From the IMG/VR virus record IMGVR_UViG_3300024265_000202, positions 1 through 23,875 of that record: DNA of 23,875 nucleotides. One strand, written 5' to 3'. Source of the DNA: a virus. Position numbers and translations under genes: made by a program. The notes beneath the pieces are model-generated. The model was given only the letters and a program-made list of their open reading frames with translations. It made no database searches and was not told the origin of the DNA. Positions 2,549-21,087 of the stretch are shown in pieces. How positions within the stretch are numbered: the first letter of the stretch is position 1; each line of letters starts with the position of its first letter.

Positions 2549-2574
2549 CTGTGGTATTATAAAAGGAGAAAAAC

Positions 2575-3172: not shown

Positions 3173-3178
3173 ATTTGT

Positions 3179-3197
3179 AAAGGAGGTTCATCATGGC
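3179..3197 (+). repeat. Repeated translation-start cassette, copy 1
   Basis: The 19-nt sequence AAAGGAGGTTCATCATGGC is identical at 3179-3197 and 5200-5218. Both copies start a few nt after a TAA stop, follow a similar AATTTTG-like spacer, and supply a full-strength AAGGAGG and the first codon of the next gene (3193 and 5214). Confidence 0.8.
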
Positions 3198-5193: not shown

Positions 5194-5199
5194 TTTTGA

Positions 5200-5218
5200 A
5201 AAGGAGGTTCATCATGGC
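5200..5218 (+). repeat. Repeated translation-start cassette, copy 2
   Basis: Second identical copy of AAAGGAGGTTCATCATGGC (first at 3179-3197), again just after a stop codon and again driving a soluble protein (ATG 5214). The proteins that follow are not alike, so only the initiation region was duplicated or conserved. Confidence 0.8.
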
Positions 5219-5588: not shown

Positions 5589-5590
5589 TA

Positions 5591-5731
5591 ATGAGTCTTA
5601 GCGATTTACTTTTTTGGGCTACTAATGATGATGCCCCTCCCAAATTAGGCATAATTTGCGTTCATGGTCATGATAGAAATGATTGTGTTAATTGCATTCT
5701 TATCGCTGGGATAATAGTGGAGGACTCCTGA
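5591..5731 (+). CDS. 46-residue Cys/His protein
   Basis: ATG 5591 lies two nt after the previous stop and the frame ends at TGA 5729-5731. The central motif CVHGHDRNDCVNC (C23, H25, H27, C32, C35) is a compact Cys/His cluster that could hold one zinc ion. The rest is hydrophobic (LIAGIIVEDS). I have seen similar CxHGHxxxxCxxC peptides in phages but know no function for them. Confidence 0.65.
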   Translation: MSLSDLLFWATNDDAPPKLGIICVHGHDRNDCVNCILIAGIIVEDS

Positions 5732-5733
5732 TT

Positions 5734-5943
5734 ATGTTTCCTTATCAAGACCCCAAACACGAAGGTAATCACCCAAGACACAAATCGGGATTACCATGTA
5801 TTGGTATTGAATCCGAGTGTAAAAATCTAGCAGGAACAGCATGGTCCCCGTATTGGTGTTTTGAATGTAATGTTAAAAGGATGGATCGTATAAGTAAACA
5901 GATGGAGGATATGCTTAAGAACTGGGACGAGAATGCATTATGA
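5734..5943 (+). CDS. 69-residue zinc-finger-like phage protein
   Basis: ATG 5734 is preferred to an upstream in-frame start at 5692, since GGAGG (5719-5723) lies ten nt before it. The Cys pattern is C22, C28, then SPYWCFEC (C41, C44) followed by a basic helix NVKRMDRISKQME. The run SPYWCFxCNVxRMxRI is one I recall from short proteins of several phage groups. A zinc finger followed by a helix fits nucleic-acid binding. It overlaps the next gene by ATGA. Confidence 0.75.
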   Translation: MFPYQDPKHEGNHPRHKSGLPCIGIESECKNLAGTAWSPYWCFECNVKRMDRISKQMEDMLKNWDENAL

Positions 5944-6068
5944 ATATGTTGGAATTACATAAAGGTATTCTTCGGGCCAGACAGGAAGAGAGAAAACATC
6001 TTCCTTGTATTATTGGTTTGGTGATTATTTGGATAATTGCTATTATTGTGTTTTATGTTATCCTATGA
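5940..6068 (+). CDS. 42-residue C-tail membrane protein
   Basis: ATG 5940 overlaps the previous stop and the frame ends at TGA 6066-6068. The first ~20 residues are charged; residues 22-42 are an uninterrupted Ile/Val/Leu membrane segment ending at the C-terminus, as in a tail-anchored protein. Its last 16 nt overlap, in antisense, the end of the amidase gene on the other strand. Confidence 0.65.
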   Translation: MNMLELHKGILRARQEERKHLPCIIGLVIIWIIAIIVFYVIL

Positions 6069-6604
6069 TACCCAGCGGCAATCCCAAAAGCCATAGCTTT
6101 GGCCAGCGCCTTCAGCTTCCAGTTATCCACTCCAGATTTATCTTCTTTAATGACGAACTTCTCTAGTTCGTCATCGTTGTTTATGAAGAATGGTTCAAGG
6201 ATGAGAGACACGGAACCCGTCTTCAGGAATCCAAGGTTATCCCGACGCTTCACCCCACGGTCCCGATTGTCCATATAACCCTGCGTAGCGCTCTGTACGC
6301 TCTCTGCAAGGGGAAGTGCTAGGTTATGGAGATAAAGTGTCTCACAGCCTCTCCACGGGGTTCCTACGTTGCTATTAAAGTGGAATTCGATGCTGATTGT
6401 CTTGTCCACATCTTTTGCCTTCATAGAACGGATAACATTACCCAGTGTGTCCTGCTCCATGAGCGTGACGGCCGGGAGATGGGCCAGTTCTGAAAACACC
6501 ATAGCGGCGATAGGGACGGCTAAGTCATATTCGGAAAGACCGTACTTGGCGTTCACAGCGCCACGGCGTTTAGCATCATGTCCTTCAGATAGATAAATGT
6601 GCAT
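6053..6604 (-). CDS. N-acetylmuramoyl-L-alanine amidase endolysin (Amidase_3 type)
   Basis: 183 residues, the probable endolysin that cleaves the amide bond between MurNAc and L-Ala in peptidoglycan. Zinc ligands of the Amidase_3 family are visible: H9 in SEGHD, E25 in LSEYD, H75 in SIEFHFNSN, with the catalytic Glu E137 in LILEPFFIND-like sequence. Length matches a bare catalytic domain; there is no separate wall-binding domain. No signal peptide or membrane anchor, so it needs a holin to reach the wall, and the best candidate is at 17666-18178. It is the last gene of the short late unit below the promoter at 8233-8240. The start follows AGGAGTAGTC. The gene end overlaps the opposing operon. 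Confidence 0.9.
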   Translation of the reverse strand: MHIYLSEGHDAKRRGAVNAKYGLSEYDLAVPIAAMVFSELAHLPAVTLMEQDTLGNVIRSMKAKDVDKTISIEFHFNSNVGTPWRGCETLYLHNLALPLAESVQSATQGYMDNRDRGVKRRDNLGFLKTGSVSLILEPFFINNDDELEKFVIKEDKSGVDNWKLKALAKAMAFGIAAGYHRIT

Positions 6605-6612
6605 GACTACTC

Positions 6613-6849
6613 CTACTTAATAGCTTTTAAAAGTTTCTGGGTGTTTATATTAAAATTATTCATCGCCGTTAACAATGTTTCAAACTCTTTCCGATATTTT
6701 ATCAATAGTTCATCTTGCATAGTATCAGAAAAAGCTTTTTCAAGTTTTCCCAAATCACCCATCAACGTCTGGGTTGTACTAACATATTTTTTAAATTCTT
6801 CTCGTGGGTTGTTACCCTTTTTTTCCGTGATCATATCCTTAAATTGCAT
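6613..6849 (-). CDS. Unknown 78-residue helical protein
   Basis: Entirely charged and predicted helical, with heptad-like Leu/Ile spacing, so a coiled-coil or helical-bundle protein is likely. The start has AAGGAGTAGTC, the same 12-nt initiation sequence (GGAGTAGTCATG) as the amidase just downstream, and the stop of the upstream gene (TAG) lies inside this Shine-Dalgarno. No Cys, membrane segment or export signal. It may be a chaperone or regulator of the amidase, but nothing proves it. Confidence 0.75.
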   Translation of the reverse strand: MQFKDMITEKKGNNPREEFKKYVSTTQTLMGDLGKLEKAFSDTMQDELLIKYRKEFETLLTAMNNFNINTQKLLKAIK

Positions 6850-6851
6850 GA

Positions 6852-7211
6852 CTACTCCTTTACAGCAAACACGATTGCCTTGACTGGCCGAAGAGCGGCC
6901 TTCGTGTATTGGTTGTTACCCCGGAGGATTTCGTAGATACTAATCTGATCCTTGACCACGACCAACTTCTCCCAATCAGGTTTGGGCTTAATAACACCAT
7001 TCGTTCCCAGAATCTGGAATTCGATGTACTGGAGTTTAAGCGGTTCATCTCCTGAATAGACCTTGTTGGCCCGTTGAAGAATCTTGAGGTCACGGAGAAT
7101 AGAGGATTCATTCTTCTTGTAACTCTTATCATATTCCATAGAGACCATAGCCCCGTATAACATCATTCTCTTCATAGATTCTTCAATTGAATGTTGTATA
7201 AACCCTTTCAT
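6852..7211 (-). CDS. Unknown 119-residue phage protein
   Basis: Begins at ATG 7211 with TAGGAGTAAG upstream and ends two nt before the next gene. The N-terminus (MKGFIQHSIEESMKRMM) is an amphipathic helix. The middle is charged helix, and the C-terminus has strands such as LQYIEFQILGTNG and EKLVVVKDQISIYEIL. No motif recognised. Because it lies between a tail-type protein and the endolysin in a late unit, it could be a minor virion component or a lysis helper. Confidence 0.75.
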   Translation of the reverse strand: MKGFIQHSIEESMKRMMLYGAMVSMEYDKSYKKNESSILRDLKILQRANKVYSGDEPLKLQYIEFQILGTNGVIKPKPDWEKLVVVKDQISIYEILRGNNQYTKAALRPVKAIVFAVKE

Positions 7212-7220
7212 CTCTTACTC

Positions 7221-8141
7221 CTAATTGTAGCTGGCGTGAGTGTCGTTATTAATAGGAATGTCCTGCCAATCCATATCCGCCACAGTATCAGCGAATGTGA
7301 TAGACCTGTTATATTTTACAGCTTGACATTTAATACGAATGGGAATCTCTTGTACCACGCCTACAGAGAAGTATCCTGAAGCGTCCGTATAGATGAGATG
7401 TTTATCCCCATCAATGGCCGATCCCCCTGAGAAGACTGCCACGGGTGCATAAGTTAGAATCTCTATAAGAGTGTTCTCAATTGCTACCCCCAGAATATCA
7501 GCCGTATATCCCCAGAGAGTGGTAAGACCCGGAGATGACCCCGGAGCAAAAACAGTCCTCACAGCCGATAAAGGTATTGTGCCTCCCCCAACTGGAATGG
7601 TAATAGGCTGTTCTGTAAAGCTATGTGTTGGGGAGAATCCACGAATGGTATAATCGCCTTCCGGAAGTCCTCCAGTTACCCAGTCCCCGTTTGAATCCGT
7701 AATACCCTTCTTGTATCGAAGCACCCCACCCAAATCCCAAATCTCAAGGGTCAGGCCCGGAACAACTTGTGGAACTCCTTGGTCATCAGTTACGTGGAAA
7801 GTTACCGGGTTCAACGCCCCGGCGATAAGTAAGTTGTACAGAGCATCAATACTCATAGGAGCATCAGCGGTATATGGATCGAACAACCTAGAATCTATGT
7901 TAGTAAACGGACCAGCACCTATTTGTCCACGGGCAATGGTCCAACATCTTTCATCTGGGGGAACTATGTCAGAATCCGTAATGTAATAGTTGTTATCAAT
8001 TGTTCCAAAGCTCATTGCATGATATGTTGAAACCAATGTCCACGCAGAAACCCCATCCCACATTTCTAATGGATTGGAATCTCTCACGAACGCAATCTCA
8101 ACAGTGAATCCGGCCGCTGAAGGAAATGATACTATACGCAT
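7221..8141 (-). CDS. Ig-like (carboxypeptidase-regulatory-type) tail/baseplate protein
   Basis: 306 residues. The N-terminal ~100 residues (WDGVSAWTLVSTYHAMSF, then NNYYITDSDIVPPDE) resemble a domain I recall from phage tail or adhesin proteins. Two Ig-like beta-sandwich modules of the carboxypeptidase-regulatory type follow: residues ~112-190 (VTDDQGVPV-like start, TDSNGDW turn, GLPEGDYTIRG) and ~212-300 (YTDASGYFSVGV, IPIRIKC). Such modules decorate virion surfaces or bind sugars. It starts at ATG 8141 with AGGGGAT and is the first gene after the late promoter at 8233-8240, with a hairpin in its leader. No signal peptide, unlike the genes just upstream. A virion protein is the best guess. 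Confidence 0.8.
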   Translation of the reverse strand: MRIVSFPSAAGFTVEIAFVRDSNPLEMWDGVSAWTLVSTYHAMSFGTIDNNYYITDSDIVPPDERCWTIARGQIGAGPFTNIDSRLFDPYTADAPMSIDALYNLLIAGALNPVTFHVTDDQGVPQVVPGLTLEIWDLGGVLRYKKGITDSNGDWVTGGLPEGDYTIRGFSPTHSFTEQPITIPVGGGTIPLSAVRTVFAPGSSPGLTTLWGYTADILGVAIENTLIEILTYAPVAVFSGGSAIDGDKHLIYTDASGYFSVGVVQEIPIRIKCQAVKYNRSITFADTVADMDWQDIPINNDTHASYN

Positions 8142-8232: not shown

Positions 8233-8240
8233 TATTTATA
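8233..8240 (-). promoter_or_regulatory. T4-type late promoter box
   Basis: The - strand reads TATAAATACTT, with TATAAATA at 8240-8233. This is the T4 late -10 consensus, used with a gp55-type sigma factor and no -35 element. It lies in a 109-nt gap between two leftward genes, about 90 nt before ATG 8141. The same TATAAATACTT is found at 18224-18214 in the only other sizeable leftward gap. Confidence 0.75.
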
Positions 8241-8250
8241 TTTGTTCTTT

Positions 8251-9579
8251 CTACCGAATACTTCCGCCTCTCAGTGAGCCACCACGAAGAACGTTAGTTA
8301 CACCTTCGGGTTCTTGTTCCCCTCGTAATGGATGAGGGTATGTATAAGGTGTGTACGTTGGTCTTGCAGTTTGAAAGTACCAATCTCTATCCTCTTCTAC
8401 TAATGTTCTTGCCCCTGTCCCAATTAAAGTCATGTCTGGATCAAGTATTGAATCACACTGTGAACCATCAACCCAATCAAGGTTAGCATAGGTAAGTGAA
8501 TTACTCATCCAACTATTTCCCCAACTATAAATAGGATCAAGACCGTTATCCTCTCCTCTACCAAGGCCATACTCCCAAGGGTAATTATCGTCGCTGTTTA
8601 TGTCCGCAGTTGTACACTGGTTGCCCGGATACAGAGTGGCATTACACCCGGCCGTAAGTCTCATGTCATAGATCGTAAATCTCATCTGACAAGTAGCCCC
8701 ACCCGTAGATACCCAAGTGTTTCCCCATATCACACCTGTTCCACCACGAACGTTTATCGCATTATCGGTCCCATCTGAACCAGCTTCATTTTGAGCTTGG
8801 CTACAATCGAAATCATTATTATAAATCTCAAACTCTCTCCCACCCCACCATGAACAGTTTCCGTGCATATCTACGTTTGTGTTATCAACCGTATTATATC
8901 GAAACACATAAGACCCACCACACTGTGTCCAGACAGCGTGATCTTTGCCCCAATCAGCCCAAGCATAGAAGGTATTATCTTCCACAAAGACCATGTTATC
9001 GGCTCCACCAATACCTGATGATCGAGAATAACCATTGGCCGTTCCATCTGAGGTGATATAAATAAAACTCTTATCGTCTCCACTAGTACCACCGACAGTG
9101 GATAAGAAGCTGTTTGCTGAAATAACTCCCAGCGTTTGTTGACCACAATTATTCGCACATGTGTTTGATCCTACAATAATCTGAAGCCCTACATCTCCAT
9201 CATCATGGAAGGCATTATTATCAACTAAAAACTCTGTCTGACTACCTGTTATGCATAACTTATTCCCATTCCCCACGAATCTAATTCCGCTCACGCTAAA
9301 GTTATTAGGCGAATCAACATCAGCTTTTATGGCGGTTCCATTCCTCGTGATTATAGTCGAAGTAGTTCCCGCCCCCGCAAAATGAACACCTTTAGTAACT
9401 GTTAACATACTTCCCCAACCACACGTACCGGCTGGGATGTTGAGTGTGTCACCGTGGGCAGTAGAGTTGGCATACTTACTTTGTACATCTGCGTAAGAGC
9501 ATGAATCCGCCGTATACTCTGTTGCCAGAGCAAGAGAAGGTATAAACAAAAATAACATTATAGTAATTAACTTATTCAT
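8251..9579 (-). CDS. Exported 12-cysteine right-handed beta-helix protein
   Basis: 442 residues from ATG 9579; the frame is open further upstream, but this start gives a clear Sec signal peptide (MNKLITIMLFLFIPSLALA, cleavage before TEYT). The mature start SCSYADVQ...DTLNIPAGTCGWGS is typical of pectate-lyase-like beta-helices. Many short Asn/Gly-rich rungs follow (VDNNAF, VEDNTFYAW, YNNDFD). Proteins of this fold bind or cleave polysaccharides, but I see no sure catalytic residues. The mature part has twelve Cys, an even number, which suggests disulfides and an oxidising compartment. It ends in a short repeat, LRGGSLRGGS. Its start overlaps the previous gene by eight nt. It is last in the late unit, so probably part of a surface or tailspike-like apparatus. 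Confidence 0.8.
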   Translation of the reverse strand: MNKLITIMLFLFIPSLALATEYTADSCSYADVQSKYANSTAHGDTLNIPAGTCGWGSMLTVTKGVHFAGAGTTSTIITRNGTAIKADVDSPNNFSVSGIRFVGNGNKLCITGSQTEFLVDNNAFHDDGDVGLQIIVGSNTCANNCGQQTLGVISANSFLSTVGGTSGDDKSFIYITSDGTANGYSRSSGIGGADNMVFVEDNTFYAWADWGKDHAVWTQCGGSYVFRYNTVDNTNVDMHGNCSWWGGREFEIYNNDFDCSQAQNEAGSDGTDNAINVRGGTGVIWGNTWVSTGGATCQMRFTIYDMRLTAGCNATLYPGNQCTTADINSDDNYPWEYGLGRGEDNGLDPIYSWGNSWMSNSLTYANLDWVDGSQCDSILDPDMTLIGTGARTLVEEDRDWYFQTARPTYTPYTYPHPLRGEQEPEGVTNVLRGGSLRGGSIR

Positions 9580-10162
9580 AAGTTTTATACCTTGTCCCTT
9601 TAGTAGCGTCAGAAACAGTTGTTGGGGGCACTCCATTGTCATCATAATGGATTCTTCCAGCTACCCCTAAGTCAGTGGTTCTAATGCTAACTGTGTTTGT
9701 ACCATCAACCCCGTCAGATGTAATCATAATCCAGTATCGAGTCCCGGAGGTTATAGATACACTCATGTTCGGAAAGGTGATAAACCCCCACGTTGTTGAT
9801 GTGGCAGAAGCAGGAATTGAATCAGAATTACCTAATGAGGAGCCCGTGATATCATCTCCACCATCGTCTAGGAAGATGTGAGCGGTCATGTTATAGGAAG
9901 CTGGTGTGGCTGTTCTTGCCATATCCACTTCAACTGAACAAAGGGTATAATTTGATGTAGCTGTGAATGGACTTCCCCACCAATCCTGAGTCCCAAACTT
10001 AAATCCTTCCTTAGCTCCATTCCCCGTAGCTGTTTCCGAGTCAGCAAGAGTCGTACATAAAAAGACTTCAACCCTGCCAGTAGCAAAATTAGCTGACCCA
10101 TTAAACGAAGCTCCCCATATGATAGAAGGAATTAAAAGTAGAATGAATATTAACTTTTTCAT
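9572..10162 (-). CDS. Exported beta-sandwich protein
   Basis: 196 residues from ATG 10162, chosen because AGGAGG lies eight nt upstream, the previous stop overlaps as TAATG, and it yields a signal peptide (MKKLIFILLLIPSIIWG, cleavage near ASFNG). The mature domain has the layout SNYTLCSVEVDM, then AHIFLDDGG, TWGFITFP and SGTRYWIMI. This is a jelly-roll pattern common in extracellular adhesion or choice-of-anchor-type domains. Two Cys residues (FLCTT, TLCSV) could pair. It lies between two other exported proteins in the same late unit. Role unknown; a fibre accessory or surface-binding protein is likely. Confidence 0.8.
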   Translation of the reverse strand: MKKLIFILLLIPSIIWGASFNGSANFATGRVEVFLCTTLADSETATGNGAKEGFKFGTQDWWGSPFTATSNYTLCSVEVDMARTATPASYNMTAHIFLDDGGDDITGSSLGNSDSIPASATSTTWGFITFPNMSVSITSGTRYWIMITSDGVDGTNTVSIRTTDLGVAGRIHYDDNGVPPTTVSDATKGTRYKTYE

Positions 10163-10739
10163 TATATTAACCTCCTGCGCACACCATCGACTATAGTAAA
10201 CGTACCGTCTTGCCACACTTCATAAATATAGGAAGCGCCAGTATCCTGACCACCAGCACGATTATAAATTCCTACACACCTCAAATCTGTTTGATTACTT
10301 AACTCTCCACCAGATAGAACATAATTCTTAGTAGTTTTTGTTACCGCTGATGCCGTTGGAGATTCTAATGTTGCTAATATCGAATCGGCCCCATTTCTTA
10401 TCTCAACCGAGAAGAGATCGTTGCCATCCCATCCGTCAGAAGAATAGGTACAGTAGAGAGTCCCCGAATCCCATGACTGTGAAGGAGCATCCCAAGCATC
10501 AGTCGCAACACTTGTAACGGCTCCAACATATAACCAGCTATCGCTTTGATTAGGCGGCCCACCGGTAAGGTCCGCCGCTGTAGTTAAACTGTTATCCCAA
10601 GCATTTGAGTTATTAGCCCACTTTGCGTTCGTGTCGTATGTGCCTGACGGTCGAATAGTTTCAAATTCAACGGCGAATACAATATTAAACCACCCGAAGA
10701 AGAGGAGACCAGCATGACTGTCCCGATAATTACTTTCAT
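10162..10739 (-). pseudogene. Exported beta-sandwich protein, frameshifted inside its signal peptide
   Basis: ATG 10739 overlaps the previous stop as TAATG and has GGAG eight nt upstream. It opens with a signal-peptide-like MKVIIGTVMLV, but that frame stops at 10584-10586 after 51 residues. The overlapping frame (10162 to at least 10761) contains LLFFGWFNIVFA, a natural h-region and cleavage site, then the mature domain VEFETIRPSGTYDTN. A one-base backward shift near 10709-10707 (GTC|TCC) joins them into a 192-residue protein with a complete signal peptide. The mature part is Trp- and Asn-rich beta-sandwich, ending GVRRRLI. The long frame has only a TTG start without a Shine-Dalgarno. It could be a sequencing error, a real mutation or recoding; the span is 578 nt, not a multiple of three. 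Confidence 0.7.
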
Positions 10740-13700
10740 TAGTTACACTCCGCTTGAACAATTAGTAGTGTTGGGTCTGATCCACCAGTTGCAGTCACAG
10801 TAAAGTTAAGCTCCGCTCCATCTGCAATAGATGTATTTGCTAATCCTGATGTCTGTGATGTCTCACTACCGGGGGTATTCACAGCACAAACAAGTCCTGT
10901 GTAAATAGCCGCAGTATCATTATAGACTGTAATTGTAGATGAATATGTAGTTCCACGACAAACAATTTTATCAATAGTGCAAGAGCCATTTGCCCATCCC
11001 ATAGGAATTTGAACATCCGCTGTAGTTACTGAATCTATAATTCCTCTGGAGAATGTCTGCTTAACAACATCAACAACAGTCCCGTTCTGAACAAGCCCAT
11101 CACCCGGAGTAAGATGTTCTGCTCCCACAAAGTCAGAGAAGTTATCGTGTTCCGCTCCACCTTGGACTGCGTAATTAGTTGAGTGGTCAGTATTATCGTG
11201 AGATTGAGCATGACTAAGTGAATGGTCGCTCCCATCACTACCTCTGTGTGTCGTGTTTTCACTAACCCCATCATGGTCATGCAGGGTCGTATCACCGCCA
11301 CCGGTTAAGGTGTTGAGATTCGTTTCGGTAACATTGGCGGTCTGTCGAAGGGCCTCCCCTAATGCCGCTGGCGTCTGTAGATTAATTATTTGGAATAAAT
11401 TGTTCATATCGATATCAGCGGTCATTGTACCTAAAGTAGTATCAGTACCTTGGGTATGAAGATCAGAAGTCTTTGGTACACTCTCCATACTATCACTATC
11501 ATAATATTGAAGTTCATCATCGGTGATATCAAAACAAAGATAACCTGTGGTGGTAAAAACATTATTAGTATTCGTGCAATCGATAAATCTATCGCCATCA
11601 GCGGCATCCGTTAAGAACGCACCTGATGTAATGTTGGTGGCGAAAATATCAGCGACTTTATCACCGCTTGCTCCAATATTATCATCATCCACAACCAGAA
11701 TATAACCCGTTTGATCGGTCCATAAACTTCCTCCACCAGCATGGCTATGTAAAGTTGTCTCACTGGCATTAGTAAGCTCAATCAAGTTAACCTCTGTAAT
11801 ATTCGTAGTCGTTCTTACAGCCTCGCCTACTCCAACAGGTGCCGCAAGGGAAATAAGTTGATACAGGGTGTTCATATCGATATCTTCAGCCATTGCACCA
11901 AGGGCTGTATCAGTTCCTTGAGTATGAATATCCCCACCCGTTATATTCGTAGCATCTAATATAGGACTCGCAACAATACTTACCTGTAACGATCCACCAC
12001 CTACAGCGATACCTATCTCATTCGCTGTCCCTGAAATAGTGCCCAAATTCCACACATTACTCGTAGTATTACCAATAAGCATCTGACCGTTCGTGACCCC
12101 CGAAGTATCCAACTCAGTTCCGCCAGCGGCTTGGTCTATAAACCCATTAGCTCCCACGTCATAGGTAGCAGTATTCATGTCTCCACCACCAGCCGCCGAC
12201 ACACAACTTACTGAATTATCAGTATTCCAAACAAGATGGTATTGGTCAGTAGAACACACAGAACCAAGATTAAGACTATCAATAGTTGCAGTTGTAATAG
12301 CTACAGAATTAGCCGATATTGATAAAAATGCGGGTGTGCCAGAAGTCGTAACATCCTGATCAATATAGGAATGGTCTGTGCCATCACTTCCTCTATGAGT
12401 AATATTCTCCAAGATACCATCATGATCATGTAGCGTAGTATCTCCACCTCCAGTGAGAGTATTCAGATTCGTTTCCGTCACGTTAGCGGTCTGTCGAATA
12501 GCCTCACCGAGTGCGGCGGGAGCTTGAAGATTGACTACTTGAGATGAGTTAGTTAAATCAATATCGGCATTAGACTGAACAGCAACCGATGGGTTGAGAA
12601 GTATAATACCGTCGGTTCCGTCTATCTCCATCGTTGCGCTCTCTCCGGCGTAACCATCTTGTGAATATAAACGTATTTTCGAGTTTACACCGTCACTAGT
12701 CAGTTGTAGTTCTTGCCATCTTTGAGTCAAAACATCGTCTTCTTCATAAATTATAAAAGTATCCGTACCACTCCAAGAAAGGGAATCATGTAGGTCTACT
12801 GGATTCGAAATACTCGTAAATCTAGGATTGCTTATAACGCTTACCGTAGCTCCCGAACTTGTTAAGTTGGTGCCAGCAATACTAAATCCACCTCCGCCAA
12901 CAAGAGAGTCAAAGGATACCCAAGCATCGCCTGAATCTGTATAACCGAATTGTCCACCTGTAGCGAAGATTGAAGCGGTTGATTTGGAGTAGAGATAGTC
13001 TGTAATTATCGTTGGAGCATCTAAAGTATCAGCGTAAATATTAGGGATACGTTCAGCAGTAGCGCCAAGATCGTCAGTATTATCGTTGGGCATGATGTAA
13101 GTGGTGTTATCGGTCCAAAGTCCTGAACCACCCGAAGCGGTAAGAGTATTACCAGACTTACTTAAACCACTCCCAAATAATAGATTAGTAGAGTGATAAA
13201 ACGCACTTAAATTAGTACCATCAACAGCTACCTTCGGCTCACCCGCTATTGTAATAATGTATCCTATTCCAAGGAATGTGCCTGTGGGAGCCGTGGCATT
13301 ATCAACTTGAATATACTTAGTTGAAGCTGTAGAAGTTATTGTCCCAACGCTTAAGTTATTAATAACAGTAAGAGTATCAAAGAAAGAAGACCCAATAGGC
13401 GTAGTGGCTGACCCAACTCCATACCCAGAATCAAGAGGCTGAAGTGCAGAGTTAATGTCAGTCCACAATCCACCCGCCCCACTGCCAGCGGCGATACAGT
13501 CAAGATCACCACCAGTATTCCATCTCACAAGATTATCATCCGTTGAGCAGATAGCCGACATAGTTACTTCACCGTGGACTTTTAAGGTGTCAGTAATAGT
13601 CATAGCGTAAGCAGAGCTTTCGCCCGTTCCACTCACCGCAAACCCATTGCTATCAAATGTGATCGACTTATTAGACCAACTTAAAACGAATGCTTCACTA

Positions 13701-16700
13701 CTACCCATAGAAATAGTTGTATCAGCCACCCAATTGAAAGTAGTTCCTACGAGAGCCATTGCTATTCCTGCGTTGTAAGTCGTGCCACCCCCAGCATGGC
13801 TATGTAAAGTCGTCTCGCTGGCATCAGTAAGCTCAATCAAGTTAACTTCTGTGATGTTGGTAGTTGTTCTAACAGCCTCACCAGCGCCAACAGGAGCGGC
13901 CAAAGCGATAAGTTGATACAAGGTATTCATGTCAATATCTTCAACCATCGCTCCAAGAGCAGTATCGGTTCCCTGTGTATGTAGCTCAATATCCCTCGCA
14001 ATGGAATCAACTATTTGAGCATCTTGCACCGAGTCAGCTATATCCGCAAAGTTACCCGTAAAAGCAATTGTAATGCTATCAGCCGTAGCATTACCTGTAA
14101 TCGTAATTCCGGTTCCATCAAGTAGTCGTATCGTATCAGTGGCAGATGAAGCAACAGGGTCAGTACCATTCTCTACATCCCACGTCTCAAACGAGTTAGC
14201 TCCACCACCTCCGGTAGCATCAAGTTTCCAGTAACTATTTCCCACTCCATCAGTCGCAAGTACCCACGCAGAGGAACCCGCTCCCGCACCGTTACTAAGT
14301 GCTTCAAGGTTAGGAACTTGGCCATCGGTAGCTGTTCCAGAAAGGTCTGTAAAGTCGCCACCAAATAACTCACTGTCTCTCGCCATATCAGCGGCTATTT
14401 GAGCGGAGGTTATGTTGCCCGAAATAGCCGAAGAAAGAATAGTGATATCGTCAGGCACTTGAGCATCAATAATACTATCAGCGATCTTACTGAAATTGTG
14501 GGCTGTATAAGCCCCTGCGTTAGTACCTGTCCCGTAGAATATCTCACCTAACTCAATACCAGTAATGACAGCTTCAAGGTTGTTAACTTCAGCACCACCA
14601 GTAAGTTCCACGCAACCTAAACCACTGGCACCCTGTACGACAGCCCATGAGTTTGTACTACAAATCGCTGGCATCACGACTGCACCTGTCATAGTTGTAT
14701 CACTAAATGTAACAGAGGGCATTCCTGAGTAGGCTATAGCATTTTTTATAGTCCCATCTACGGCAACATAAGGTTCGCCGTTGAGTGTCCATATATATCC
14801 AACCCCAAGGAATGTAGTTGTCGGAGCCGACGAATTATCAGCTTGAATATACTTAGTATCTGCGGTTGAAATAACATTATCAACAGTAAGCCCATTTACT
14901 ACAGTAAGAGTATCAAAGAAAGATGGTCCAATGGGTGTAACGGCTGACCCTATTCCATATCCTGCATCAAGTGGTTGAAGCGCAGAGTTTATATCAGTCC
15001 ACATTCCTCCTGTGCCACTGCCAGCGGCGATAACTGTACATATCCACGAAGACCCTCCGCTGTTCTGGATGGCCTCACCATCAACACAATCAATAGGCAC
15101 CCCACCAGCCGTATAGTCTATAGCCGAACTGTTATCAGCATCATAAACTGACTTGAACATGTCACCACCACCTGATGCAGTAACACACTCAAGAACCCCG
15201 TCAGTGCCCCAAGTGAGCAAATTGTTATTAGTTGAACAGATATCCGACATTGTAACAGCACCATGGATTTTTAAAGTATCAGTGATGGTCATGGCGTATG
15301 CTGAGGATTCACCCGTCCCACTAACAGCCATTCCGTTACTATCGAATGTTATAGATTTATTTGCCCAACTTAAAATAAAAGCTTCACTACTGCCCATAGA
15401 GATGGTTGTATCGGCTACCCAGTTGAAAGTTGAAGTAGCAAGGTCCATAGCTATTCCTGCGTAATATACACCTCCACCTCCACCGGTCGCATCTTCCTTC
15501 CATGCAGTCCCATTTGCGCCATCGGCCGCCAACACCCAATTAATAGTTACCCCATTAGCTCCAATTGAAAGACCTTCAAGAGTCCCAGTAATTGAAGTAA
15601 AGGGAAGTGAGGTAGTTTTAGCGTGAAGCTCTGAGTCTCTCGCCATATCATCCGCTATTTGAAGGGAGGTTATCGTACCTGAGATAGTTGCCGCTGTTAC
15701 TGTAATATCATCCGGTATCTGTGAGTCAGTCGCAGACCCGGTTATAGCTGTAAAGTCTAAAGCTGTGACGGGTACATGGTGTTGTGTGCTACTCACTCCT
15801 GAAATCCCTGTATGACTCACAGCACTGTTAAGTACAGAATCAACTACCCCGTCATAATCAGAGTCATATTGAGAAAGAATATCATGAACAGCATTAGCGG
15901 AACTTGACTGGCCGGTAACCCCATCCCAAGTTGCTCCATATGTATCATTAATTACATAATCTTCATTTGAACTATGAAGGACAATAGAACCGTTTGTAGT
16001 CCCAACAGCAACTACGTAACCTACTTCAATTACTCTACTTCCTATCGACGGTCTCACGTCAGTAAAATTACCAGCGGTGACGTCATCTAAATATAGTCGA
16101 TCACCCGCCGCATACAAAGAGGTATCTATATCATGAACAACGCCTATCGTTGTCACATATCCATCAGTACCATCTTCAATTTGATGAGTAGTCATTCCTA
16201 ATACATAAGTAGTCGCAACATCATCCGCTTCTGCTAATCTAATATTAGGTACTTCACCAGTAGCCCCATCTATATAGACGATCATACCGTCATCTATTGT
16301 CGCTCCAGAAGCGTTACGGGCTTTGTAATATACTTCCTGCCCAATCTGTAGGGTTATATCCGCTTCATCATTATAAAATGCCAATGCCCCACTCGTACTA
16401 TCATAGAAGAGTTTACCTTCATCATATAGAGATGCTAAGGAAGAAGGATCAAATTGAATATAAGCTCCATTAGTAATTCCGTTACTTATATAAACACCAC
16501 CAAAGGTAATTATCGCAGGTTGAGTACCTTCGCTTATAATTTTAAGTGGTATTACATCAGCATCATCAGCTTCTAAATGAAGAAGATCAACTGAAGAAGG
16601 ATTACCAGTATGTTGATGTATGTGTACAAGATCGCCTGAGAACCCACCACTAGCATCAATTTCAAATGCACCATCTGCACCAACAGGTCCACTGAAGGTA

Positions 16701-17182
16701 AATGTGAGTGTATTGTTCCCCATTACAAAAGTTGTATCATTATCAGGATTACCTATCTCATTCAATAATCCATCAAACGTGAAATTAGTATCAATGAGTG
16801 CAATACCATTTGACGCTGAATAAGTAGTGTTAGTATCAATCGAGCCGAAGGCGATCCAAGCATCTCCTGAATCGGCGTATCCAAATTGTCCACCGGTTGC
16901 GAAAATGGACGCTGTATTTTTAGAGTAAAGGTAGTTAACCCACACATCGGTTCCGTGGTAATCTGTTGCCCAAATTGTGTTAAAATAAGCAGACCCGTTT
17001 GGATAAAAACGTATTGGGGATGTTTCATCATACCCACCAATAGCTATTTTCTTGGTAGGATATTGAAGGGGGGCAATCCAGTTATCGGGATATTCTTGCC
17101 ATGTAGGGAACGGCTCAGAAACCACCGTTCCCACGAACACGAATGTTGTAGCTAGAATTATACCAGCTATTTTCTTTAGCAT
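10739..17182 (-). CDS. Giant repetitive fibre/adhesin with signal peptide
   Basis: 2147 residues from ATG 17182. It starts with a Sec signal peptide (MLKKIAGIILATTFVFVGTV, cleavage near VVS|EPFP), which tail fibres normally lack. The rest is Gly/Thr/Ser/Asn-rich beta repeats of the phage-fibre kind. Recurring units include HTQGTDTxLGxM..DIDMNxL (three), ETTLHSHAGGG or DTTLHDHDG (two each), IPDDIT-type strands, and a large duplicated block (13200-13782 and 14735-15470). A domain around residues 285-410 (SGATIDDGMIVYIDG, GMTTHQIEDGTDGYV) is one I recall from many phage fibres. Paired Cys modules of the form ICST...W...C recur at least four times. It probably forms a long trimeric fibre or surface adhesin. 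It follows the lysis-region genes after nine nt in the same late unit. Confidence 0.85.
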   Translation of the reverse strand: MLKKIAGIILATTFVFVGTVVSEPFPTWQEYPDNWIAPLQYPTKKIAIGGYDETSPIRFYPNGSAYFNTIWATDYHGTDVWVNYLYSKNTASIFATGGQFGYADSGDAWIAFGSIDTNTTYSASNGIALIDTNFTFDGLLNEIGNPDNDTTFVMGNNTLTFTFSGPVGADGAFEIDASGGFSGDLVHIHQHTGNPSSVDLLHLEADDADVIPLKIISEGTQPAIITFGGVYISNGITNGAYIQFDPSSLASLYDEGKLFYDSTSGALAFYNDEADITLQIGQEVYYKARNASGATIDDGMIVYIDGATGEVPNIRLAEADDVATTYVLGMTTHQIEDGTDGYVTTIGVVHDIDTSLYAAGDRLYLDDVTAGNFTDVRPSIGSRVIEVGYVVAVGTTNGSIVLHSSNEDYVINDTYGATWDGVTGQSSSANAVHDILSQYDSDYDGVVDSVLNSAVSHTGISGVSSTQHHVPVTALDFTAITGSATDSQIPDDITVTAATISGTITSLQIADDMARDSELHAKTTSLPFTSITGTLEGLSIGANGVTINWVLAADGANGTAWKEDATGGGGGVYYAGIAMDLATSTFNWVADTTISMGSSEAFILSWANKSITFDSNGMAVSGTGESSAYAMTITDTLKIHGAVTMSDICSTNNNLLTWGTDGVLECVTASGGGDMFKSVYDADNSSAIDYTAGGVPIDCVDGEAIQNSGGSSWICTVIAAGSGTGGMWTDINSALQPLDAGYGIGSAVTPIGPSFFDTLTVVNGLTVDNVISTADTKYIQADNSSAPTTTFLGVGYIWTLNGEPYVAVDGTIKNAIAYSGMPSVTFSDTTMTGAVVMPAICSTNSWAVVQGASGLGCVELTGGAEVNNLEAVITGIELGEIFYGTGTNAGAYTAHNFSKIADSIIDAQVPDDITILSSAISGNITSAQIAADMARDSELFGGDFTDLSGTATDGQVPNLEALSNGAGAGSSAWVLATDGVGNSYWKLDATGGGGANSFETWDVENGTDPVASSATDTIRLLDGTGITITGNATADSITIAFTGNFADIADSVQDAQIVDSIARDIELHTQGTDTALGAMVEDIDMNTLYQLIALAAPVGAGEAVRTTTNITEVNLIELTDASETTLHSHAGGGTTYNAGIAMALVGTTFNWVADTTISMGSSEAFVLSWSNKSITFDSNGFAVSGTGESSAYAMTITDTLKVHGEVTMSAICSTDDNLVRWNTGGDLDCIAAGSGAGGLWTDINSALQPLDSGYGVGSATTPIGSSFFDTLTVINNLSVGTITSTASTKYIQVDNATAPTGTFLGIGYIITIAGEPKVAVDGTNLSAFYHSTNLLFGSGLSKSGNTLTASGGSGLWTDNTTYIMPNDNTDDLGATAERIPNIYADTLDAPTIITDYLYSKSTASIFATGGQFGYTDSGDAWVSFDSLVGGGGFSIAGTNLTSSGATVSVISNPRFTSISNPVDLHDSLSWSGTDTFIIYEEDDVLTQRWQELQLTSDGVNSKIRLYSQDGYAGESATMEIDGTDGIILLNPSVAVQSNADIDLTNSSQVVNLQAPAALGEAIRQTANVTETNLNTLTGGGDTTLHDHDGILENITHRGSDGTDHSYIDQDVTTSGTPAFLSISANSVAITTATIDSLNLGSVCSTDQYHLVWNTDNSVSCVSAAGGGDMNTATYDVGANGFIDQAAGGTELDTSGVTNGQMLIGNTTSNVWNLGTISGTANEIGIAVGGGSLQVSIVASPILDATNITGGDIHTQGTDTALGAMAEDIDMNTLYQLISLAAPVGVGEAVRTTTNITEVNLIELTNASETTLHSHAGGGSLWTDQTGYILVVDDDNIGASGDKVADIFATNITSGAFLTDAADGDRFIDCTNTNNVFTTTGYLCFDITDDELQYYDSDSMESVPKTSDLHTQGTDTTLGTMTADIDMNNLFQIINLQTPAALGEALRQTANVTETNLNTLTGGGDTTLHDHDGVSENTTHRGSDGSDHSLSHAQSHDNTDHSTNYAVQGGAEHDNFSDFVGAEHLTPGDGLVQNGTVVDVVKQTFSRGIIDSVTTADVQIPMGWANGSCTIDKIVCRGTTYSSTITVYNDTAAIYTGLVCAVNTPGSETSQTSGLANTSIADGAELNFTVTATGGSDPTLLIVQAECN
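11265..13985 (-). repeat. Repeated HTQGTDT/LHSHAGGG modules in the fibre gene
   Basis: Three copies of a ~65-residue module beginning HTQGTDTxLG lie at about 11265-11462, 11735-11930 and 13785-13985. A fourth copy lacking the first part is at about 12365-12565. Two subtypes are seen: VGxGEAVRTTTNITEVNL...LHSHAGGG and AALGExxRQTANVTETNL...LHDHDG. The copies are close in protein and partly in DNA, as expected for recombination within the gene. Confidence 0.75.
13200..15470 (-). repeat. Large internal duplication in the fibre gene
   Basis: Block 14735-15470 and block 13200-13782 encode nearly parallel sequences. Both contain YxAGIAMxL, the stretch NWVADTTISMGSSEAF, KSITFDSNG, GTGESSAYAMTITDTLK, ICST, WTDINSALQPLD, SFFDTLTV and GEPxVAVDGT, in the same order. 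The upstream-coded copy has an extra ~50 residues with a second Cys pair. A smaller repeat links the start of the gene (16850-16935) to 12890-13010 through TASIFATGGQFGYxDSGDAW. Confidence 0.8.
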
Positions 17183-17191
17183 GATACCCTC

Positions 17192-17494
17192 TTAATGTTT
17201 AAGTTGTTTTATGAGTTCTTCGTTTTTAATCTGAAGATTTTCGGCCTTCACCCGCCAATACTTCACCGTCTCTTCATGGTTGAAGATATAAGGGGGTGAT
17301 ACGATGTAGAATTTCGACATCACCTTCAGTTCTTTTTCAGAGAAATCGCCTACTTGACCTACTATCTGTTCATCCCCGGTATTAAGGAGAATGACATCCT
17401 TCTGAAGAAAACTACACCCTGTTACTACCAGAATGCTCAGAAGGAGGGACAGTAACACGATTCCTTTTAATGACTGAATTGATGTATTCCACAT
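17192..17494 (-). CDS. Lipoprotein, possible outer-membrane spanin
   Basis: 100 residues from ATG 17494. Longer in-frame starts exist, up to 17602, but this one gives a proper lipoprotein signal: MWNTSIQSLKG, hydrophobic IVLLSLLLSILVV, then lipobox VTGC with C27. Mature part: CSFLQKDVILL, a beta-like middle, and a charged C-terminal helix (WRVKAENLQIKNEELIKQ) that could form a coiled coil. It overlaps the upstream membrane-protein gene by 83 nt out of frame. That nesting, a lipoprotein and a holin-like gene close by all recall Rz/Rz1 spanin pairs, which fuse inner and outer membranes at lysis. The Shine-Dalgarno is weak. Lipoprotein is secure; spanin is inferred. Confidence 0.65.
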   Translation of the reverse strand: MWNTSIQSLKGIVLLSLLLSILVVTGCSFLQKDVILLNTGDEQIVGQVGDFSEKELKVMSKFYIVSPPYIFNHEETVKYWRVKAENLQIKNEELIKQLKH

Positions 17495-17660
17495 CGCCAC
17501 GGGCCACCGCTTTTTCGAATTTTTTCTTTTCATTGATGGCCTCCAATGCTTTTTTCTCATGTTGGACACTGGGGTCTTCCCTATCCCTCTTCTTCTTTCC
17601 AAGGAAAGCTTTCAGGAGAAGACCCACAATGCCCAACAATGTTCCGAGTAATTCAAACAT
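17412..17660 (-). CDS. Small membrane protein, lysis region, overlapped by lipoprotein gene
   Basis: 82 residues. Residues 1-20 are a hydrophobic helix (MFELLGTLLGIVGLLLKAFL), followed at once by GKKKRDRE and a charged helical part. It may be the inner-membrane partner of the lipoprotein encoded in the overlapping frame. Against that, the basic cluster right after the helix favours the C-terminal part staying in the cytoplasm, opposite to an inner-membrane spanin. The Shine-Dalgarno is weak (GAG just before ATG), and the gene starts five nt after the holin-like gene, so translation may be coupled. Confidence 0.65.
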   Translation of the reverse strand: MFELLGTLLGIVGLLLKAFLGKKKRDREDPSVQHEKKALEAINEKKKFEKAVARGDVEYINSVIKRNRVTVPPSEHSGSNRV

Positions 17661-17665
17661 CTGAA

Positions 17666-18178
17666 TTACTCAGCAGACTTCGGGTTATCATCCCCGCCGC
17701 CGTTACCAGTCTGAAGTTCATCCAGTTTCTTTTGTAGTGATTCCCGGCCCTTCTCTAAGCCGTAATCTCTTGCTCTGGCCAGATTGACCACAAGAGCAGT
17801 CTTTACGCCTTCACTATCAAGGAACGGAAGTTTTCCGGCCATTTTCATGTAAGCCTTATCAAACTTTTCGGCTCCAGCAACAGCGTAACCTCTTTCAGAC
17901 GCTTTCTTTCGTGCCCATTCTTCGGCGTAGAAAATTGCATCTTCAGCGGCACCAACAACAGCAACTTCGTACTCTTCCAGCTTCCACTTCTTCAGTAGTT
18001 TCTGGACACCCAGAGTAACCAGTCCCAGTACGGCCATGGATAGAAGTTTGATAACTCCGAAGACGGCTTCATTGAACACTCCGGTCAAATCCTCAACCAG
18101 TGCGGCACCCGCCATAGCCGGAACCACGAACAGTGCCAGCATTGCGAATACCATTAGTACGATACTCAACTTTTTCAT
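17666..18178 (-). CDS. Holin-like membrane protein with signal peptide
   Basis: 170 residues, first gene after the late promoter at 18217-18224, with AAGGAGGATTG before ATG. It has a signal-peptide-like N-terminus (MKKLSIVLMVFAMLALFVVP, AMAGA cleavage site) and a second hydrophobic helix at ~38-60 ending in KKWK. The following soluble part (VVGAAEDAIFYAEEWARKKA, then GAEKFDKAYMKMAG and a C-terminal coiled coil) resembles the LLH-type holin family in layout: one membrane helix, then an Ala/Glu helical domain. The end is Gly/Asp-rich. It sits beside a lipoprotein and small membrane protein, and the phage's amidase lacks export signals, so a holin is needed. The call rests on layout and context; a periplasmic or inner-membrane protein of another kind is possible. 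Confidence 0.55.
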   Translation of the reverse strand: MKKLSIVLMVFAMLALFVVPAMAGAALVEDLTGVFNEAVFGVIKLLSMAVLGLVTLGVQKLLKKWKLEEYEVAVVGAAEDAIFYAEEWARKKASERGYAVAGAEKFDKAYMKMAGKLPFLDSEGVKTALVVNLARARDYGLEKGRESLQKKLDELQTGNGGGDDNPKSAE

Positions 18179-18216
18179 AACAATCCTCCTTGTGGGTTAA
18201 TGGTAAGTCTTTCAAG

Positions 18217-18224
18217 TATTTATA
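18217..18224 (-). promoter_or_regulatory. T4-type late promoter box
   Basis: The - strand reads TATAAATACTT, with TATAAATA at 18224-18217, in the 58-nt gap between the large terminase stop and the holin-like gene, 39 nt before ATG 18178. It matches the T4 late consensus and the copy at 8233-8240 over 11 nt. It would start a late transcript for the lysis genes and the exported fibre cluster. Confidence 0.75.
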
Positions 18225-18236
18225 AGAGATAACGCT

Positions 18237-19910
18237 TTAACTGATGAGCCATCTTTTAAAATCATCATCTGTCTCTGTATCTTCATATGACCCGGATGGT
18301 AAAATGGGGAATGGTGTTTCTTCCATCTCAGGATTAACGTAAACAACACGAGCTATTTTTTGAGTTAATCTATCAACATCAACCCAATCCGTTTTTAAAA
18401 CATAAGCGCCTACAGCTAAGGCCATAATTGCATCAGCCGTGGACCCCTCTTCTGGTACATAAGAATTGGCTTTTTTAATAAAAGTACCAAATTCTGCAAT
18501 AGTGTCATAATCGTTAACAATCATCTTTTGGGTCTCGATTAAGTCCCTCATGAAGTGGAGCATGATTCGTTTTGTCTTTGTGGTAGTCCTAAGCCCCATG
18601 TTTGGTTTCTTAAACTCACTATACAGGTTGTCATACTCATAATCGAAGAACAGGGCATCAGCCACGGATTGTCCAAGGTCGTTATTCTCTACCATAATAA
18701 TGGGGTTGAAGTATTCATCAGCAATATGCATAATGTATCCGGGGAAATCTGAATACAAAATATCAGCCGCCCGGAATACAGCTACTTGTCTGATAGGAAA
18801 TTCTGTGATATCCAACACCTGTGCCACACTGTAACAAAGTTCTACCCCTTTTCCAGTATCCACTCCGATAACGTAAACCCGGTTAGGGCTGGGATTCTCA
18901 TATACCTTGAAATGGTAATCATCCTTCACACTGATAGGCGTATGCCATACAAGACTTTTAAGAGCGTCTCCGGAAAGTAAAGTATTACCAGAGCCAAGGA
19001 ACTCACATCCATATTCCTGAGCAAACCCACGTTCATATATGGTTGCAATTTGATCCTGTTTCCATTTCAAGTCACGGCCGGGAACTTCCCACCAATCATA
19101 ACGGAAGAACTTAAATGGTGACAGTTCTTTCAAGGAGTCATGACAAATCTTATACCAATGATTCAGACCTTTCGGGGTAGAAACCATTAAAACCTTTGTG
19201 GTAGTACCAGATGAAATTGTCGGGTAGGCTGAATTCCAGAATTCATCCCAAAGGTTCTTGGCAATCTTAGCAACCTCATCCACAAAGAGGATGTTTAGCG
19301 AACGCCCGGTGAATGAATCTTCGGATGTGGCCTCAGCTTCGATGCGTGAGCCATTCTCAAAAACGATACTCAGAGTGTTCCATTCAGTAACACCCTGTTT
19401 TAACCAATGAGGCAGTTCCTTATAAGCTACTTTAATTCTTCTGATAACATCCTTGGCACCCTTCTCTTTGTTTGACAGAACACCAATGGTGAAGTCATCA
19501 TTGAACATTGCTTGATGAAGTAAGATGATACTAACCAGAGTAGTCTTGCCAATCTGACGTGAAGCAAGGGTGGCCGTGAAGCGATTCTCATGCATGTGGC
19601 GAAGCATCTCATACTGCTTCGGATACAATTCAATGAGCTTCTTGCCTTCATCCTTGGAGATGATGTAGAAATAATTCTCAGCAAAATATTCAATATCTCG
19701 CTTACACCTTTTTACCTCTTCTATCATGGCATCGGTGTAGGAGATGGTACAATTTTCCGGACGTATCTGGGTCCGGCCACGGTACTTTATCTTCTTCCCC
19801 TTAACATCCTTAATGACTGGGGGAAGCTCCGGGGCATAATCCGTCATACGATCATAAATGAACGCCGGGATTATTTCAGGAGTGGGTGTGTTTAAGCCCA
19901 GAGTTTCCAT
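18237..19910 (-). CDS. terL: Large terminase subunit (T4 gp17-like)
   Basis: 557 residues. This is the ATP-driven motor and nuclease that packages DNA into the prohead. ATPase motifs: Walker A SRQIGKTT (117-124), Walker B ILFVDE (207-212; D211 and catalytic E212) and coupling motif STPKG (244-248). The RNase H-like nuclease domain has D351 (VIGVDTGKG), E408 (IIMVENNDLG) and D493 (TADAIMALA). The T4 residues D401, E458 and D542 have almost the same spacing, so both domains look intact. Starts at ATG 19910 right after the gp4 stop (0 nt gap). Partners: gp16-like small subunit (20384-20866) and the portal, which is outside the window. It is the surest marker of a T4-type myovirus here. Confidence 0.95.
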   Translation of the reverse strand: METLGLNTPTPEIIPAFIYDRMTDYAPELPPVIKDVKGKKIKYRGRTQIRPENCTISYTDAMIEEVKRCKRDIEYFAENYFYIISKDEGKKLIELYPKQYEMLRHMHENRFTATLASRQIGKTTLVSIILLHQAMFNDDFTIGVLSNKEKGAKDVIRRIKVAYKELPHWLKQGVTEWNTLSIVFENGSRIEAEATSEDSFTGRSLNILFVDEVAKIAKNLWDEFWNSAYPTISSGTTTKVLMVSTPKGLNHWYKICHDSLKELSPFKFFRYDWWEVPGRDLKWKQDQIATIYERGFAQEYGCEFLGSGNTLLSGDALKSLVWHTPISVKDDYHFKVYENPSPNRVYVIGVDTGKGVELCYSVAQVLDITEFPIRQVAVFRAADILYSDFPGYIMHIADEYFNPIIMVENNDLGQSVADALFFDYEYDNLYSEFKKPNMGLRTTTKTKRIMLHFMRDLIETQKMIVNDYDTIAEFGTFIKKANSYVPEEGSTADAIMALAVGAYVLKTDWVDVDRLTQKIARVVYVNPEMEETPFPILPSGSYEDTETDDDFKRWLIS

Positions 19911-20384
19911 CTAACGCCTTCTTCTCTCTAATCCTAACTCTCTCTCGGTCATAATGATAAAAGACAAGCCACGGGCCTCACAGACCCTTGTAGCCGCCTT
20001 CCACTTCGCTTGGTTGCGGATATATTGGTTCTTCTCCCTGTTATACCGCTTCAGGGCCTTATAATTATTTATCTTTGGGGGTTGGGGAGGAATTGTCTGT
20101 TTGTACGGTTTAACTTCAACCAGATATTCTTTAATCTCACCATCACCGTTTTTCATAGCGAACCAAAAATCAAGAAAGTAACGCCGGGGTCTGTCAGTCC
20201 ACGGATCACGATAAGGAATCATCACCTCTTCAGAGTTCCAAGCAAGTATCTTGTCACTCTCATCAAGATGCTTCATCACCCTCAATTCCCAACCGGAACG
20301 GAAAATAATGTTGGACAGATTCCCCCGATATTTTTTGGGGAAGATAGGACTAAAGCGCCCTTGTTTGTATTTGGGAGCCGCCAT
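19911..20384 (-). CDS. gp4: Head completion protein (T4 gp4-like, PD-(D/E)XK fold)
   Basis: 157 residues, close to the T4 gp4 length. It acts after DNA packaging to complete heads so that tails can join. The run FRSGWELRVMKHLDES, then EEVMIPYRDP, RRYFLDFWF and YLVEVKPY shows a PD-(D/E)XK nuclease-like core: E33, D72, E90-x-K92. A basic helix (KALKRYNREKNQY) and QAKWKAA..C..RGLSFIIMTE follow, as in the family. Whether the nuclease is active is not visible. It starts by a one-nt TAATG overlap with the small terminase gene and abuts the large terminase, an arrangement unlike T4, where gene 4 is elsewhere. Confidence 0.85.
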   Translation of the reverse strand: MAAPKYKQGRFSPIFPKKYRGNLSNIIFRSGWELRVMKHLDESDKILAWNSEEVMIPYRDPWTDRPRRYFLDFWFAMKNGDGEIKEYLVEVKPYKQTIPPQPPKINNYKALKRYNREKNQYIRNQAKWKAATRVCEARGLSFIIMTERELGLERRRR

Positions 20385-20866
20385 TAATCATCGGCCGCAA
20401 TATCACTAAGGTTGCCTTGTTTCCTCCCAGACTTGTCAGTATCCTCTTCCGGGTTGAAACTCCGGCCCCTCATCTTCACGGCATCCTTCATAGCAGTTGA
20501 ACTGGAATCTTGGAGTTTGGCTAAAGCATCTACAGTATTTCTGATAAGGCTTGAAGCGGCCTCAAGTTCACGAACCCCCATTGTTTCTTTCATCATCAAC
20601 AAAGCGTTCGCAATAGCGGCATCTCCGGCCTCGATAAGACGATACATTTTGGTCCGGACGTACTTCCGATCCACATCATAGTTTTTGGCTTCATCCTCAT
20701 TATGGGTTAATTCAACCTCTTTCGTATCAACAAAGTCAATCTTGCCCACTTCGCCAAGGTCCGGCTTTAATTCATCCAGATTATCTGGTATACCGGGAAA
20801 CTGTTCTACGTTATCTTTCCCATCACCCGGAACCATTTCTTCGATTTTTCTTTCGTCACCATTCAT
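20384..20866 (-). CDS. terS: Small terminase subunit (T4 gp16-like)
   Basis: 160 residues. T4 gp16 (164 residues) forms rings that recognise DNA and regulate gp17. The layout agrees: an acidic, Pro-rich N-terminus with PGIPDNLDELK, a central helical domain (residues ~63-120: NYDVDRKYVRTKMYRLIEAG, then MKETMGVRELEAASSLIRNT and LAKLQDS) matching the coiled-coil core, and a polar C-terminal tail. Overlap with the neighbours is ATGA upstream and TAATG downstream. Sequence similarity to T4 is low, so position next to gp4 and gp17 is part of the argument. Confidence 0.8.
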   Translation of the reverse strand: MNGDERKIEEMVPGDGKDNVEQFPGIPDNLDELKPDLGEVGKIDFVDTKEVELTHNEDEAKNYDVDRKYVRTKMYRLIEAGDAAIANALLMMKETMGVRELEAASSLIRNTVDALAKLQDSSSTAMKDAVKMRGRSFNPEEDTDKSGRKQGNLSDIAADD

Positions 20867-21087
20867 CGCAACATCGTCTCCAATCTGCGGTAGACCCGCT
20901 CCATAATTAGCTTGTATTCTTTAGACCCACGTTCATAATTTTCAAGGACGGGCACGGCTCCAACCTCTACCAAAGCAACCAACTTAACACGGCTCCCTTT
21001 TGACGCCAGCATCAGATGTTTAATAATTTTCTCAACATCTTGCTGGAGTTCGTCATTCTCAACTATGAATTCACCGAATCTCTTCAT
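20863..21087 (-). CDS. Small protein with capsid-targeting-like N-terminus
   Basis: 74 residues. The first ten, MKRFGEFIVE, match the T4 capsid-targeting sequence (MKTYQEFIAE in internal protein IPIII) at M1, K2, E6, F7, I8 and E10, with aromatic F4 in place of Y. IVE fits the [IL]xE rule for the gp21-type prohead protease. After removal, a helical, Leu/Val/Lys-rich body of 64 residues would remain (ELQQDVEKIIKHLM, then LKIMERVYRRLE-like helix). No catalytic motif. Likely a small internal head protein that may be injected with DNA. It overlaps both neighbours by ATGA. Confidence 0.75.
   Translation of the reverse strand: MKRFGEFIVENDELQQDVEKIIKHLMLASKGSRVKLVALVEVGAVPVLENYERGSKEYKLIMERVYRRLETMLR

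Follow-up and report, generated by a model that had tools for sequence, protein, structure and literature searches.

A 2147-residue repeat fibre encoded by a T4-like virus contig begins with a predicted Sec signal peptide, and two further proteins with such signals are encoded behind it in the same operon. The oddity recurs in unrelated phages, which suggests that the maturation of some phage fibres takes place beyond the cytoplasm and that they get to the virus or the cell surface afterwards. In the general view, virion assembly in tailed phages is wholly cytoplasmic. As the best explanation, to which we give close to an even chance, we posit that the fibre is exported through Sec, folds in the periplasm and joins virions or is released at lysis. 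We argue from the signals, the phage-type fibre domain, the operon order and the recurrence in other phages, all of which the sequences show.

The virus contig and its T4-like genes

The window, that is, the whole stretch of DNA that was analysed, is the virus contig IMGVR_UViG_3300024265_000202 (23,875 nt). PHROG and Pfam matches identified the following T4-type genes:

23061-23765, - strand: gp15-type sheath stabiliser gene (PHROG/Pfam)
20384-20866, - strand: gp16-type gene (PHROG/Pfam)
19911-20384, - strand: gp4-type head-closure gene (PHROG/Pfam)
18237-19910, - strand: gp17-like terminase large subunit (PHROG/Pfam and phage-record matches)

Judged by its genes, the 23.9-kb window comes from a T4-like myovirus, of which it covers a part. 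The terminase shares 37-39% identity with its best phage matches, mostly cyanophage gp17, and on this measure the virus appears distant from known T4-like myoviruses. The gene order gp16, gp4-type head closure (19911-20384) and gp17 is not seen in T4. Between the gp15 and gp16 genes (20863-23064, - strand) lie four genes with similar N-termini (MKRFGEFIVEN, MKRFLQYIAEE, MKSFIEYIEEA and MIRFKESLDVIIEA) that resemble the start of the T4 internal protein IPI, MKTFKEFTS, and are possible candidates for capsid-targeting sequences. Two of the four contain HExxH motifs (HELVH, HEQVH), and their products could be packaged metallopeptidases. At the end of the contig (23781-23875) lie short tandem repeats; read on the - strand, they would give a Gly-rich product segment.

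A late unit with predicted exported products

Directly behind the gp17 gene lies a compact unit of seven products, bracketed by two TATAAATA sites that resemble T4-type late promoters. This motif occurs five times in the window against about two copies expected (our base-composition estimate); the two - strand sites at 18217-18224 and 8233-8240 are intergenic, and the three others lie inside genes. The unit and its surroundings comprise the following features, all on the - strand:

18217-18224, - strand: TATAAATA, similar to T4-type late promoters, at the head of the unit (motif; 38 nt upstream of the first gene)
17666-18178, - strand: 170-aa holin-like protein, N-terminal signal and one further hydrophobic segment (Pfam, signal test)
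17412-17660, - strand: small membrane protein of 82 aa, hydrophobic near the N-terminus, without cleavable signal (signal test, hydrophobicity)
17192-17533, - strand: 113-aa lipoprotein, lipobox VTG/C, GGAGG ribosome-binding site (lipobox by eye)
10739-17182, - strand: 2147-aa repeat fibre, Sec signal, 16 Cys (six close pairs and four others) (signal test, cysteine count)
17117-17182, - strand: fibre signal peptide MLKKIAGIILATTFVFVGTVVS (signal test)
16532-16768, - strand: fibre domain A1, residues 139-217, HIHQHTGNP motif, common to other phage fibres (sequence matches)
15956-16426, - strand: domain A2 of the fibre (residues 253-409), with the fold of decoration proteins and the phi29 head-fibre base (sequence matches and model)
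10162-10761, - strand: reading frame of secreted type, 192-199 aa, its start disrupted in the assembled sequence (reading frames)
9572-10162, - strand: Sec-signal protein with choice-of-anchor R domain (signal test, NF041539)
8251-9579, - strand: Sec-signal protein, 12 Cys, beta-helix-like by eye (signal test, cysteine count)
8233-8240, - strand: second TATAAATA, opening the following unit (motif; upstream of 7221-8141)
7221-8141, - strand: 306-aa protein without signal, carboxypeptidase-regulatory-like domain below the Pfam cut-off (Pfam, signal test)
6053-6604, - strand: Amidase_3 endolysin without signal, in the next unit (PHROG/Pfam, signal test)

Signal peptides were called by a home-made rule-based test for a positive n-region, a hydrophobic core and small residues at -3/-1. 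In a 49-kb E. coli stretch the test found all five known Sec proteins, its other calls there being only membrane or N-terminally hydrophobic proteins. Among 50 late or structural genes of T4 it called one, pseT.2, a spanin-like lipoprotein gene. In the window it called four of 31 genes (17666-18178, 10739-17182, 9572-10162 and 8251-9579), all of them in this unit. The background rate among other ORFs of at least 100 aa in the fetched phage loci was 22/785; at this rate, three signals among the four fibre-region genes have p ~9e-5, for genes picked after the fact. Ribosome-binding sites stand directly before the signal-bearing ATG of the fibre, choice-of-anchor-R and holin-like genes. Prediction supports export well.

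As a group, the first three products resemble a normal phage lysis cassette. Export is normal for lysis proteins, and for these three it is therefore unsurprising. As in phage lysis cassettes with an LLH holin and spanins, the membrane and lipoprotein genes adjoin and an endolysin is nearby. The cassette differs in that the LLH holin match (PF09682) of the first product, at 14.6 against 24.9 bits, falls below the curated Pfam cut-off, and in that the small membrane protein is not like a classical i-spanin: its positive charges follow the hydrophobic segment, the wrong topology for one. The start of the lipoprotein gene is embedded in the gene of the small membrane protein in another frame, and the assignment of this pair as spanins is uncertain.

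The preliminary description had presented a late unit in which almost every product is exported. Its late promoter at 18217-18224, on the - strand and 38 nt before the first gene, was confirmed, as were a signal peptide on the first product and, by the VTG/C lipobox, the lipoprotein nature of the third. The second product, listed among the exported ones as a membrane protein, has the N-terminal hydrophobic stretch but no cleavable signal. Of the seven products for which signal prediction had been proposed, four were thus called by our test; the lipoprotein, whose lipobox follows an unusually long n-region, was missed by it and recognized by eye, and a signal on the 10162-10761 product is only surmised. 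Three of the last four products carry clear Sec signals, but the oddity of the unit was overstated, with three of the seven looking like lysis proteins.

The signal-bearing fibre

The rule-based test confirmed a Sec signal on the 2147-residue fibre, as described earlier. Its N-terminus, directly after a ribosome-binding site, reads MLKKIAGIILATTFVFVGTVVS followed by EPFPTW. The A2 domain matches annotated tail-fibre proteins of phage isolates at 30-44% identity. A sequence search of A2 against solved structures yielded no match. A model built from 47 relatives (pLDDT 80) matched the head-fibre base gp8.5 of phi29 and a series of capsid decoration proteins; against 6qyy it gave a Foldseek E of 6e-4 and a VIA Z of 7.8, and decoration proteins reached VIA Z values of up to 11.7. 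Its relatives among the predicted viral structures of BFVD include phage fibre-type proteins. Part of the shaft is 43-67% identical to a signal-less fibre on another contig (L020), the N-terminus of which we take to be that of a typical phage fibre. The decoration/fibre-base fold of A2 and the signal-less phage relatives support the reading of the large protein as a phage fibre and not a host adhesin. The viral scan gave A2 in 415 stretches; bacterial genome contigs, for which the search pattern was narrower, gave none. Capture of a host adhesin is weakly disfavoured by this absence.

Six C-x(13-16)-C pairs, where 1.06 would be expected, account for twelve of the 16 cysteines in the fibre. Four of these pairs are copies of one module, so that the pairs are not independent. 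Such pairs are absent from the shaft of the signal-less L020 relative. Cysteine content is not raised in the signal-bearing relatives as a class (0.35% versus 0.40%), and we do not regard a high cysteine content as characteristic of exported fibres in general. The pairs therefore back export of the window fibre only.

Genes after the fibre

For the gene behind the fibre, the preliminary description had restored a signal peptide by a one-base shift. A hydrophobic stretch and a long reading frame do exist in another frame than that of the ATG at 10739, which stops after 51 codons; as assembled, however, the gene at 10162-10739 is not intact, and its signal is conjectural. The break may be an assembly error, a real inactivation or a frameshift. 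The next product, reported as another Sec protein, was called by the signal test and matches choice-of-anchor R (NF041539) at 32.4 bits against a cut-off of 30; it has no C-terminal hydrophobic segment that could serve as a surface anchor. The last one had been described as a Sec protein with 12 cysteines. Signal and cysteines were both found, with the start at 9579 and not at 9645. It matched no Pfam family, and a single-sequence model made without relatives reached pLDDT 30. The 12-Cys, holin-like and choice-of-anchor-R proteins had no relatives in the phage records searched, and the 12-Cys protein had none in viral contigs either.

It might be argued that nothing but the lysis genes is exported and that the remainder is host-captured cargo or an assembly artefact, given the resemblance of the first three genes to a lysis cassette and the broken gene at 10162. 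The placement of all genes in one compact operon directly behind gp17, the confinement of A2 to viral stretches (with the narrower pattern for bacterial contigs) and the recurrence of a like arrangement on other contigs make this ordinary explanation very improbable.

Recurrence in other phages

Of the A2 relatives examined in viral contigs, 8/72 carry a strong Sec signal (10/76 on a looser reading), a set that includes a closely related pair, L068 and L091, and one contig under two handles, L078 and L012. Signals were also found on two relatives (L017 and L024) reached through other parts of the fibre. Many of the signals in relatives end in a small residue before Q, which is typical of Bacteroidota signals. 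Neighbours of signal-bearing fibres are themselves more often signal-bearing (7/41 versus 5/313; Fisher p 9e-5), all seven coming from three contigs. No signal-bearing fibre was seen in the first 99.8 kb of Rhodothermus phage RM378 or in phage P12024S, and the fibre-type proteins of phages P26218 and ctNMl277 lack a signal.

Three arrangements stand out. On the 29-kb contig L109, a siphophage, a signal-bearing large fibre-type ORF occupies the slot directly after the long ORFs that stand where tape-measure and tail-tip genes would be; the contig holds no other A2 match. L098 is a probable T4-like contig and has a tail-tube gene resembling T4 gp19; behind its fibre gene come four consecutive signal-bearing genes, making five in a row. 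On L078 and L024, a signal-bearing beta-helix protein is encoded near or beside the signal-bearing fibre, a combination that the window may share. Two side observations concern these contigs and another one. L098 encodes three tandem signal-bearing paralogues (12217-15041), one of which matches PHROG 10356 (virion structural protein), and L002, a contig with a T4-like terminase, has at 2081-7779 several 2OG-Fe oxygenase-like genes and two membrane fatty-acid desaturase-like genes, as judged by eye.

The lack of a signal in 64/72 A2 relatives, together with cysteine contents that are not generally enriched in the signal-bearing ones, would fit a fibre that matures in the cytoplasm like other tail fibres, its hydrophobic N-terminus being an inner-membrane anchor or packed in the virion. 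We consider this unlikely. A positive n-region, a hydrophobic core and small cleavage-site residues occur together in three neighbouring, unrelated proteins of the window; the same features return in relatives, many with the Bacteroidota-typical ending; and the cysteines of the window fibre are paired.

Proposed fate of the exported proteins

In our preferred explanation, the unit brings together lysis proteins, a fibre exported through Sec and small proteins of spike-like or adhesin-like character. Late in the infection, the fibre and these small proteins would be translocated unfolded through the host Sec channel. Their signals would be cleaved and folding would follow in the periplasm, probably with disulfides in the case of the fibre. 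We saw no further transmembrane segment, C-terminal anchor or outer-membrane exit domain in the mature forms of the fibre, the choice-of-anchor-R protein and the 12-Cys protein, and the proteins would therefore wait in the periplasm until lysis, when they would attach to virions or leave with them. Signal cleavage, periplasmic folding and virion attachment are inferred.

The main rival is a purely extracellular role, a possibility that we take seriously but rate below the preferred explanation. The proteins would be exported without being virion parts. Their site of action would be the envelope, the surface of the infected cell or, after lysis, the surrounding polysaccharide and cells nearby, for instance in superinfection exclusion, as decoys or in matrix degradation. 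Choice-of-anchor R occurs in proteins that bacteria secrete, the beta-helix proteins near the fibres of L078 and L024 bear signals, and the unit shares its promoter with lysis-type genes, all of which would suit such a role. It counts against our preferred explanation that the true tail-fibre genes of the phage may lie outside the 23.9-kb fragment, in which case the 2147-aa protein is perhaps not the virion fibre. Against the extracellular role stand the virion-type decoration/fibre domain of the fibre, the position of the L109 fibre directly behind tail genes, and the lack of any detected anchor or exit signal in the three mature proteins. On account of this lack, the single-fibre contig L109 and the unit shared with a holin-like gene, we think it likelier that the proteins join virions or are released at lysis than that they are displayed on the infected cell, although the three fates named in the preliminary description are not decisively separated.

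More broadly, it is possible, though we hold this with less confidence than the explanation for the window itself, that in several unrelated lineages of tailed phages the receptor-binding fibres pass through Sec and fold in the periplasm with disulfides, and that a virion becomes complete only once lysis has brought capsids and fibres together. If export comes first, the last assembly step would take place at or after lysis, phage maturation would come to include the periplasmic folding and disulfide machinery of the host, and fibres set free could coat or block cells nearby.

Comparison with known systems

That phage fibres normally carry no Sec signal, as the preliminary description assumed, holds for T4 gp34, gp37, gp12 and wac, none of which was called by the same test. 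In a paper on Bacteroides phages, absent signal peptides were used as support for a phage origin of DGR target proteins (PMC6199706), and the annotation of receptor-binding proteins would be affected if our explanation is true. No report of Sec signals on tailed-phage fibres was found in the openly licensed full-text literature. The window fibre is comparable to the T4 long tail fibres gp34 and gp37 and the whisker wac as a fibre of a T4-like myovirus, but differs from them in having a signal; T4 was not among the phage records that it matched.

The A2 fold is shared with the phi29 head-fibre base gp8.5 and with DUF2190-like decoration proteins (T1, HFTV1, Pam3). To our knowledge these are synthesized in the cytoplasm and lack a signal, whereas A2 of the window sits inside a 2147-aa fibre with a Sec signal. 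The tail fibres of Roseobacter phage CRP-6, Nitrincola phage 1M3-16, Pseudomonas phage Rollin and Synechococcus phage S-N03 have A2 in common with the window fibre (30-44% identity). Unlike the window fibre, that of CRP-6 begins with MALVLKDRVKETTTTTG and has no signal. A Sec signal on a receptor-binding protein is known from the adsorption protein pIII of filamentous phages, the virions of which are assembled at the envelope. An inovirus is, however, extruded through the membrane, whereas the window belongs to a tailed phage with capsids assembled in the cytoplasm.
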